Shown here: one piece after another, positions 33,915 through 35,719 of the stretch | How positions within the stretch are numbered: position 1 is the first letter of the stretch | Layout of the letters: each line of letters begins with the position of its first letter | Source of the DNA: Aureimonas ureilytica DSM 18598 = NBRC 106430 | GTDB lineage: Bacteria > Pseudomonadota > Alphaproteobacteria > Rhizobiales > Rhizobiaceae | Length of the DNA: 64,000 nt | NCBI RefSeq assembly: GCF_000382705.1 | Contig: NZ_ARQE01000001.1 | Coordinates: 353,551 to 417,550 of the forward strand | Reading direction: 5' to 3' | Notes under the pieces: model-generated | What the model was told of the DNA's origin: nothing | The model's database searches: none | The model's input: only the letters and a program-made list of their open reading frames with translations | Translations under genes and position numbers: made by a program

Positions 33915-33962
33915 TCAGGCCGAGGCCTTGGGATGGCTTGTGTTCGCTTTGGGATCGTGCTT

Positions 33963-33979
33963 ACTTTGCATTACAAAGT
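33963..33979. promoter_or_regulatory. operator candidate ACTTTG-N5-CAAAGT upstream of the membrane protein gene
   Basis: Perfect 6-bp inverted repeat with a 5-bp spacer, ending 9 bp before the ATG of the membrane protein. The same CTTTG-N5-CAAAG layout occurs over the start of uppS at 34993-35007. The winged-helix regulator encoded between them is the natural binding partner. Confidence 0.6.
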
Positions 33980-33988
33980 GAGGACGTC

Positions 33989-34603
33989 ATGGGCGACTAC
34001 GAACGGGCCTTGGCCGATATCGACGACATCCGCAGTCGGATGGCGGCGAGCACCGTGTTTCATGGGCTCGGTCCCGCCGCGCTCGCGACGACGGGTGGTC
34101 TCGCCATCGCCACCGCTCTCGTGCAGGGCGCGCTGATCGCCGTCCCGGCGGAGCGCCCCGGCCTGTTCTTCGCCGGGTGGATCGCGGTCGCCGTCGTCAG
34201 CGTGGTGCTGGTGGGGGCCGAGATGGTCGTGCGCTCGCGCCGCCACCATGCGGGCCTTGCCGATGCGATGATTTTCCAGGCGGTGCACCAGTTCCTGCCG
34301 GCCGGCGCGGCGGGCGCGGCGCTCGCGCTGATCCTCGCCCGCTTCGCGCCGGACGCGCTGTGGATGCTGCCGGGCCTCTGGCAGATCCTCGTCAGCCTCG
34401 GCCTCTTTGCCGCCGCCCCGTCGCTGCCGCGCGGCACCCTGATCGCGGCCGCCTGGTACTTCGTCGCCGGCTGCGCCGTTCTCATGCTGGAGGGCTCGGC
34501 GCCCACGCTCTCGCCCTGGTCGATGGGTGTGCCCTTCGCGGTCGGGCAGCTGCTTCTCGCCGCCGTCGTCCGCCATGCTTCGGGAGATCACGATGCAAGA
34601 TAG
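33989..34603 (+). CDS. hypothetical integral membrane protein
   Basis: 204 aa with about six hydrophobic segments after a short charged N terminus ('MGDYERALADIDDIRSRMAA'). No domain family is recognised with confidence. Its last 11 bp overlap the start of the winged-helix regulator gene, so the two are cotranscribed and probably translationally coupled. Such membrane protein/regulator pairs occur as self-regulated cassettes. The start at 33989 places the ATG right after the operator-like repeat. Confidence 0.78.
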   Translation: MGDYERALADIDDIRSRMAASTVFHGLGPAALATTGGLAIATALVQGALIAVPAERPGLFFAGWIAVAVVSVVLVGAEMVVRSRRHHAGLADAMIFQAVHQFLPAGAAGAALALILARFAPDALWMLPGLWQILVSLGLFAAAPSLPRGTLIAAAWYFVAGCAVLMLEGSAPTLSPWSMGVPFAVGQLLLAAVVRHASGDHDAR

Positions 34604-34964
34604 CGCCGCGCCCTTTTCCTATGACGGCCTCGACCGCGTGATCCACGAGAAGGCGCGGCTCGGGATCATGACTTCGCTCGCCGGCCACGCGAAGGGCCTC
34701 GCCTTCGCCGATCTGAAACGGCTCTGCGGCCTCACCGACGGCAACCTGTCGCGCCATCTCCAGGTGCTGGAAGAGGCCGGGCTCGTCGCGATCGACAAGG
34801 TGTTCGAGGGCAAGCGCCCGCTCACCACCTGCCGCCTGACGGCGGCCGGCCGCGCGCGTTTCCTGGATTATCTCGCCGTGCTCGAACGCGTCGTGCGCGA
34901 CGCGGCGGAGCTCGCCAAGACGAGCGGCGCGGACGCCCCCGCCTTGCGCCCGCGCAACGCCTGA
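34593..34964 (+). CDS. winged-helix transcriptional regulator (HTH_27/MarR-like)
   Basis: 123 aa. The DNA-binding domain is '[20 protein letters not shown]' followed by '[20 protein letters not shown]' and the wing '[21 protein letters not shown]', the pattern of small standalone winged-helix proteins. The ATG at 34593 has a GGGAGA site and overlaps the preceding gene. It is followed within 36 bp by uppS. The matching inverted repeats on both sides of the gene pair suggest that it controls this cassette, including itself. Confidence 0.85.
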
Positions 34965-34992
34965 CCCCTTCCCGAATTTTTTTGCACTGGAG

Positions 34993-35007
34993 CTTTGCGA
35001 TGCAAAG
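34993..35007. promoter_or_regulatory. operator candidate CTTTG-N5-CAAAG overlapping the uppS start
   Basis: Perfect inverted repeat; one more pair (C/G) extends it to CTTTGC-GAT-GCAAAG. It covers the ATG at 35000 and so could block translation or transcription of uppS. It matches the site at 33963-33979 in sequence and spacer. Confidence 0.6.
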
Positions 35008-35719
35008 TGGTTTCGCCGACAGAATGCATATCGGCCTGATCATGGATGGCAACGGCCGCTGGGCCACCGCGCGCGGCCTACCGCGCGTTCGCGGTCATCA
35101 GGCCGGCGTGAAGGCGATCCGCCCCGTGGTGGAAGCCGCCGCCGAGGCGGGGGTCGGCACGCTGACGCTCTATGCCTTTTCGAGCGACAACTGGCGCCGG
35201 CCGGCGGCCGAGGTCTCCGGGCTGATGGCGCTTCTCGGCCGCTACCTGCGCGAGGAGATCGCGACGCTCGCGAGAAGCGGCGTGCGGCTCGGCTTCATCG
35301 GCCGGCGCGACCGCTTGCCGGCGGGGCTCGCCGCGCGCATCGCCGAGGCCGAGCGGGAGACGGCGGGAGCCGAGCGGCTGCATCTGCGCATCGCCTTCGA
35401 CTATTCGGCGCGCGACGCCATTCTCGCCGCCGCCCTCCAAGCCGCCCACGCCGCTCAAGCCGGCCCCGGCCTGTCGCGCGAGGCCTTTTCGCGCCTCGTC
35501 ACCAGCGACGGCGCGCCGGATGTCGATCTTCTGATCCGCACCGGCGGCGAGCAGCGGTTGAGCGACTTCCTCCTGTGGGAATGCGCCTATGCCGAGCTCC
35601 TCTTCGTGGAGCGCATGTGGCCCGATTTCGGGCCCGCCGATCTCACCGAAGCCCTGGCGCGCTTCGCGCGGCGCGAGCGCCGCTTCGGCGAGGTGCCGGA
35701 GGCCGCCGTCGCCGCCTGA
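35000..35719 (+). CDS. uppS: isoprenyl transferase, undecaprenyl diphosphate synthase family
   Basis: 239 aa cis-prenyltransferase that extends farnesyl diphosphate to undecaprenyl diphosphate, the cell-wall lipid carrier precursor. The catalytic Asp16 is in '[15 protein letters not shown]', followed by '[11 protein letters not shown]', '[16 protein letters not shown]' and the C-terminal '[20 protein letters not shown]' (conserved RTGGExRLSNFLLWQ with Asp for Asn). The housekeeping copy normally sits between frr and cdsA; this one follows a membrane protein and a regulator, so it is probably a second, regulated copy. The start at 35000 has GGAG 8 bp upstream; ATG 35024 is an alternative. Confidence 0.88.

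Follow-up and report, generated by a model that had tools for sequence, protein, structure and literature searches.

A putative autorepressed operon for a second cis-prenyltransferase, with an operator over the uppS start codon

What is a cis-prenyltransferase gene (uppS) doing behind a membrane protein gene and a regulator gene, between two matching palindromes? Such a cassette occupies positions 33963-35719 of the window, by which we mean the whole 64-kb stretch of DNA that was analysed. A sequence-only reading had described it as a self-regulated unit providing a second, inducible supply of undecaprenyl diphosphate, and its palindromes, genes and coordinates for this interval were all correct. 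We propose that the cassette is an autorepressed operon for a second cis-prenyltransferase. For the full mechanism set out below, we put the probability at roughly 0.55.

The first gene of the cassette (33989-34603, + strand) is an ORF for a 204-aa membrane protein, and overlaps by 11 nt the gene for a 123-aa winged-helix regulator of the HTH_34 family (34593-34964, + strand). The third gene encodes the second UppS, a 239-aa cis-prenyltransferase of the PRK14839 type (35000-35719, + strand). Operator 1 (33963-33979, either strand; ACTTTG-N5-CAAAGT, ACTTTGCATTACAAAGT) lies ahead of the membrane gene, and operator 2 (34993-35008, either strand; CTTTG-N5-CAAAGT, CTTTGCGATGCAAAGT) lies over the uppS start. 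Both contain the 15-mer CTTTG-N5-CAAAG, their centres are 1029 bp apart, and the uppS start codon occupies positions 8-10 of the operator 2 15-mer. We placed this start at 35000 and not at the ATG at 35024 because of the GGAG ribosome-binding site (34989-34992, + strand) and the conservation of ATG-CAA-AGY. The GGA is conserved in a 37-row logo, as is a T-run farther upstream (34977-34983, + strand) that is probably a U-rich leader.

A putative operon promoter (33938-33967, + strand), recognised by comparison only, comprises TTGTGT (33938-33943), 18 nt and TACTTT (33962-33967), and this second hexamer extends into operator 1. CTTG(C) recurs by eye 17-18 nt upstream of TACTTT in most of 38 relatives compared, which places operator 1 on the likely −10 element. 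An extra half-site, CTTTG (33947-33951, + strand), lies between the promoter hexamers, 17 bp upstream of operator 1, and shows weak conservation at offset −17 in a 38-row logo. A strict sigma-70 promoter scan of the cassette returned nothing, the operator 1 promoter included. A terminator scan of the cassette found none, and no stem at the T-run.

The cassette enzyme scored well above the cut-offs of PF01255 (248.7 bits vs 27) and TIGR00055 (229.9 vs 109.55). It passed NF011412 / PRK14839 (369.6 vs 334) and failed NF011408 / PRK14834 (277.5 vs 348), which we take to be the canonical alphaproteobacterial UppS type. In an alignment that included the canonical copy and six relatives, it retains intact the motifs DGNGRWA, SS(D/E)NWRRP and RT(G/S)GE-RLS-F, presumably the catalytic motifs of UppS. 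The alanine in LTLYAFSS would suggest a long-chain product; we did not use it as evidence. By profile and motifs, the cassette enzyme is a predicted second cis-prenyltransferase. The genome also carries a canonical uppS at the usual pyrH-frr-uppS-cdsA place; the search for another uppS beside cdsA was thus successful, and the cassette uppS is not the only one in the genome. In the tree, a branch with an SH-aLRT of 98 separated the 37 cassette UppS rows from 31 canonical UppS.

A regulator-profile scan of named genomes yielded 467 relatives, of which the best 80 were kept as named loci, so that close relatives and Bradyrhizobium are over-represented. These 80 comprised 55 Bradyrhizobium, 8 Methylobacterium and 7 Aurantimonadaceae, the remainder being Methyloligella, Rhodopseudomonas, Afifella, Faunimonas, Hyphomicrobium and unclassified records. 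All three genes were present in 79 of these best 80 of 467 loci, which bears out the earlier view of the cassette as a unit. The exception was Aurantimonas sp. CSK15Z-1 (L074), which has lost the cassette uppS and whose genome (G037) has the canonical uppS only. At L074:4377-4450, operator 2 and the start codon remain as a scar, with a stop after 18 codons. In both L074 and L066, uppS is missing, a DUF4153 protein follows the scar, and the membrane gene and regulator are retained.

The membrane gene was found in 35 of 397 genomes of an order sample, and the suggested survey of the cassette across relatives showed all three genes there in 30 of 30 loci inspected from these 35. A phylum sample had the membrane gene in 13 of 398 genomes, all in the window's class. 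Five of 289 genomes in a class sample, the window's included, had a UppS above the NF011412 cut-off, and all five had the cassette. Among 121 genomes of the window's family, the regulator matched at E <= 0.001 in 33 and at E < 1e-40 in four (the window's included); all four had the membrane gene and three had uppS. The other listed genome of the window's genus (G079) gave no regulator match. The distribution of the cassette is patchy, and the cassette is rare in the window's own family.

We also compared 40 genomes with the membrane gene, namely 33 of the 35 order genomes (G565 and G739 were left out) and seven others. Two uppS genes were present in 35 of them, and a cassette-type uppS only in three (G576, G674 and G741). 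G037 and G1104 kept the membrane gene and regulator with the canonical uppS only, so the pair may have another job. The cassette uppS match at G435:C2:918078-918584 (L306) covers only positions 1-174 of the 219-position family model, and this gene is possibly truncated or frameshifted.

The two operators were conserved together with the cassette. Operator 1 was exact in 66 of the best 80 of 467 named loci, with one mismatch in 12 and two in 2 (at most one mismatch in 78/80). Operator 2, in the 79 named loci with uppS, was exact in 66, with one mismatch in 11 and two in 2 (at most one in 77/79), and the start codon fell at positions 8-10 of its 15-mer in all 79 (75 ATG, 4 GTG). Of the 30 inspected order loci, 29 had operator 1 and 26 had operator 2 with at most one mismatch. 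A two-mismatch operator 2 was also found in G652 (Faunimonas), Fulvimarina, G1171 and G1153, where loss of the canonical gene is not established.

Within the window alone, two sites with one mismatch are unremarkable (0.76 expected; 16 of 100 shuffles reached two). In the whole 5.09-Mb genome (5,087,183 bases), exact CTTTG-N5-CAAAG occurred twice, both times in the cassette, and the control pattern, read backwards, occurred four times. At the control rate, one would predict ~0.0009 sites over the cassette (1.1 kb), and two there would have a probability of ~4e-7 by our own arithmetic. Across the best 80 of 467 named loci (652 kb), 132 of the exact sites and 23 of those with one mismatch fell where the two operators are expected, against 1 exact and 3 one-mismatch sites elsewhere. 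The single exact site elsewhere was the leftover operator 2 of L074, and two of the three one-mismatch sites adjoined an exact operator 1. The control palindrome gave 0 exact and 8 one-mismatch sites in the same loci. These data confirm that the two matching operators flanking the regulator, as first described from the window, are real and represent one motif that is conserved with the cassette.

In 28 of the 40 cassette genomes, the number of exact sites, those of the cassette among them, did not exceed that of the backwards control. A refined pattern found three sites outside the cassette in four genomes (one in G268, two in G1104), each within an ORF, and no further regulon target was found in the four genomes scanned. 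Among the matches listed, exact sites exceeded the backwards control in G658 (24 vs 6), G026 (10 vs 4) and G1104 (9 vs 1), and these genomes may have larger regulons.

Codon usage at the start of uppS shows that operator 2 is constrained at the nucleotide (DNA) level. The second codon was Gln in 37 of 41 dereplicated genes and was CAA in 37/37, compared to 52/186 Gln codons elsewhere in these genes. The third was Ser in 34 of 41 and was AGT in 24/34, compared to 22/511 elsewhere. Residues after the third varied freely in the alignment with the canonical copy and six relatives.

From linkage and conservation, we infer that the regulator binds operator DNA. The HTH_34 regulator would bind both palindromes as a dimer. 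At operator 1, over the likely −10, it would prevent transcription of the entire operon, including the regulator gene, from starting. At operator 2, which lies 1029 bp downstream and has no visible promoter of its own, it would act as a second brake on uppS alone, either as a roadblock to elongation or by looping to operator 1. Production of UppS would thus require that most of the repressor has been released. We regard these three steps as likely. The membrane protein would inform the regulator about the condition of the membrane or the carrier lipid, most simply by tethering the regulator to the membrane in the way that SdpI tethers SdpR; this sensing is the weakest step and is proposed by inference. 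Once released, uppS would add undecaprenyl diphosphate.

The regulator is a member of the HTH_34 family by both profile and fold. It matched PF13601 (HTH_34) at E 5.9e-23 (81.3 bits vs a cut-off of 27), and its model (pLDDT 88.0) is a winged helix with a long C-terminal helix, with 1ub9 as the nearest solved structure. We rejected its assignment as an SdpR autorepressor (NF033789; 15 bits vs a cut-off of 100). The membrane protein was modelled by AlphaFold2 with a pLDDT of 90.8, as one N-terminal helix and six membrane-length helices. It had no Pfam family above cut-off (at E <= 1 only DUF3487, below cut-off) and no match among PDB folds at E <= 0.001 in Foldseek. Its best VIA-align hit was a designed helical barrel (Z 8.2), a kind of match that the tool warns is common for helical bundles. 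An undecaprenyl-diphosphate phosphatase of the PAP2 or BacA type was considered and rejected, as there was no Pfam match and PAP2 structures appeared only at Foldseek E values of 1.7 and 3.4.

In the strongest alternative, the regulator itself responds to a ligand such as an isoprenoid, or to redox state (for example through oxidation of Cys45), and the membrane protein is an effector and not a sensor. Cys45 was invariant in 44 dereplicated regulators and lies just before the predicted recognition helix; many of the regulator's structural neighbours are MarR and PadR proteins, several of them solved with small ligands. However, an invariant cysteine may be structural, and the overlapping membrane and regulator genes stay together even without uppS, which favours a working pair. 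We consider self-sensing a serious contender, although with odds clearly short of even. Sensing through the membrane protein could also be extended to a rather speculative form, which we think improbable as a whole. The membrane protein and regulator would be a one-operon carrier-lipid thermostat of Gram-negative alphaproteobacteria, in which the membrane protein gauges free undecaprenyl phosphate and accordingly retains the repressor or lets it go; the start-codon operator would open uppS last, and the unit would have taken over as the only uppS in part of Methylobacterium.

A further alternative is that operator 2 covers an internal promoter, with uppS on its own, possibly leaderless, transcript and two promoters repressed independently. 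The A/GCTTTG of operator 2 does resemble the −10-like ACTTT of operator 1, and a Bradyrhizobium study reports 320 transcript starts 0-10 nt upstream of annotated start codons (PMC4842269). Yet the 37-row logo has no CTTG −35 at the right distance from operator 2, and the conserved GGA and T-run point to translation from a longer mRNA. The strict promoter scan found none here either, though it also missed the operator 1 promoter. We judge an internal promoter to be unlikely.

A role of operator 2 in restraining uppS can be assessed in genomes where the cassette holds the only uppS. G576, G674 and G741 belong to genus g112, which includes Methylobacterium (four g112 loci are identical to named Methylobacterium loci). 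In these three genomes, cdsA directly follows frr with no uppS between them, operator 2 is gone, and operator 1 has one mismatch. Among 79 sampled g112 genomes, counted by hand by score class, 31 had only a cassette-type uppS, 35 had both types (one partial) and 13 had only the canonical type; the frr-cdsA junction was checked in G576, G674 and G741 of the 31. These 31 genomes had no other PF01255 protein at E <= 1e-20. The genus thus holds species with either uppS or both. Among the 13 canonical-only genomes, however, are incomplete ones (G1185, 70%). The membrane gene and regulator stood beside uppS in 65/65 cassette loci inspected, out of 66 cassette-type loci (the partial one, in G1132, was left out).

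Operator 2 was erased (at least four mismatches) in 10/31 sole-copy genomes compared to 0/34 two-copy genomes (P = 2.5e-4, Fisher test, kinship ignored). This is as expected if operator 2 throttles uppS. The remaining sole-copy loci had operator 2 with one mismatch (19/31) or two (2/31). With operator 2 retained in this form, either repression there cannot be strong or the signal is usually present. An exact operator 2 was found in 0/31 sole-copy genomes vs 13/34 two-copy genomes. This difference alone is no evidence, because the one-mismatch form is as common with two genes; it occurred in 19/34 two-copy genomes and in the 13 two-copy loci nearest to the sole-copy ones on the tree.

When the three proteins are placed on one tree, a single change is enough to explain the sole-copy state (branch support 68), whereas the loss of operator 2 requires four. 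All four losses fell in the sole-copy part, which makes up 31% of the tree length (about 0.009 by chance), and this clustering is suggestive only. One reading is that operator 2 tends to be lost only where the cassette enzyme must carry the essential function. As it is the only UppS type in 31/79 g112 genomes, the cassette enzyme can be the housekeeping supply. The idea of a second, inducible supply therefore holds as far as a second uppS is concerned, whereas a purely auxiliary or emergency role does not fit these 31 genomes.

The genes next to the cassette vary among relatives. In 24 of the best 80 of 467 named loci, uppS has a B12-binding radical-SAM (BchE-like) gene downstream (for example, L084:5166-6686 and L070:5202-6725, with 22 other named loci); the 24 span several families, and three of the genes are short fragments and one is apparently interrupted. 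Two of the proteins scored 532.9 and 528.4 on the BchE model (cut-off 481.35). The gene is possibly a fourth operon member in those relatives. Aureimonas sp. AU20 (L315) carries the cassette on the 436-kb plasmid pAU20b, and both there (L315:5735-8189) and in A. jatrophae (L122), a linalool dehydratase/isomerase-family gene and a prokaryotic diacylglycerol kinase gene come next. Judged by their gene families, these neighbours form a terpenoid or prenyl-lipid context. The window has no fourth gene, and an opposite-strand major-facilitator gene follows uppS. Of the window's own flanking genes, purH alone recurs, in L074. Upstream groups spanning more than one family label were, among the 15 groups listed, confined to Nitrobacteraceae and one unclassified record.

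A hopanoid link as a requirement was rejected, as squalene-hopene cyclase is absent from the window's genome and two large genera, g366 and g112, supply most of the 21 matches in genomes with the membrane gene. The cyclase (TIGR01507, E <= 1e-50) was found in 21/35 order genomes with the membrane gene vs 54/362 without it, as cross-counted by hand from two 397-genome samples taken as one draw.

The genes downstream of uppS in relatives could mean that the cassette UppS makes a special polyprenyl, and not the ordinary carrier, which the fourth-gene enzymes of relatives would later change, whether the BchE-like B12 radical-SAM enzyme or the linalool dehydratase/isomerase-family enzyme with diacylglycerol kinase. 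The recurrence of these genes behind uppS is what speaks for it, but the window does without a fourth gene, and in the 31 g112 genomes with no other PF01255 protein the enzyme must supply the essential carrier. We find this version doubtful, somewhat more so than the internal promoter. Finally, we consider it very improbable that operator 2 acts in RNA, as an inverted repeat whose hairpin would mask the start codon from ribosomes. The palindrome does span the start codon, immediately behind the ribosome-binding site, in 79/79 named loci with uppS, but the hairpin is absent from the folded 66-nt leader of the window (no stabler than shuffles, z 0.43), the one-mismatch form CTTTA...CAAAG, which is common, loses a base pair with no compensating change, and operator 1, the same palindrome on the likely −10, cannot be a leader hairpin.

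The cassette occurs in many bacteria of soils and plants, is conserved in Bradyrhizobium and Methylobacterium and is able to become the only uppS. If the autorepressed-operon reading is true, so compact a unit, made up of a repressor, a membrane protein and UppS, would open the homeostasis of the carrier lipid to experiment in Gram-negatives that are easy to culture, and a start codon inside a repressor site would offer a clean natural case for roadblock regulation. In the open-licence literature, we found no description of the cassette, of a conserved operator at the start of uppS, or of Methylobacterium genomes in which the cassette-type uppS is the sole copy. Each enzyme and the regulator family are already known, as is the pairing of an autorepressor with a membrane protein (SdpR-SdpI; PMC1626106).

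Several known systems resemble parts of the cassette. NF011412 / PRK14839 (second-type di-trans,poly-cis-decaprenylcistransferase), whose cut-off the cassette UppS passes, names the enzyme only; the regulator, operators and membrane partner lie outside the model. Repressor sites downstream of a promoter can stop elongation, as described for LacI roadblocks (PMC4132739). Unlike those, the cassette site is natural, lies about 1 kb away and is fused to a start codon, and roadblocking here is our proposal. How carrier-lipid levels are controlled for wall and surface polymers is an open question, studied in Bacillus via SigM (PMC11081497). The likeness is a membrane-linked transcription switch tied to carrier-lipid supply, which for the cassette is proposed. 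SigM is a sigma factor with an anti-sigma factor and acts on several processes, whereas the cassette has a repressor whose exact genome sites lie only in its own operon. The closest parallel is SdpR-SdpI of Bacillus subtilis, where an autorepressor is held at the membrane by a polytopic protein from the same operon. In contrast to SdpR, the cassette regulator falls below the SdpR model (15 vs 100 bits) and its sequestration is a proposal, and the cassette adds a prenyltransferase and a second operator on its start codon.
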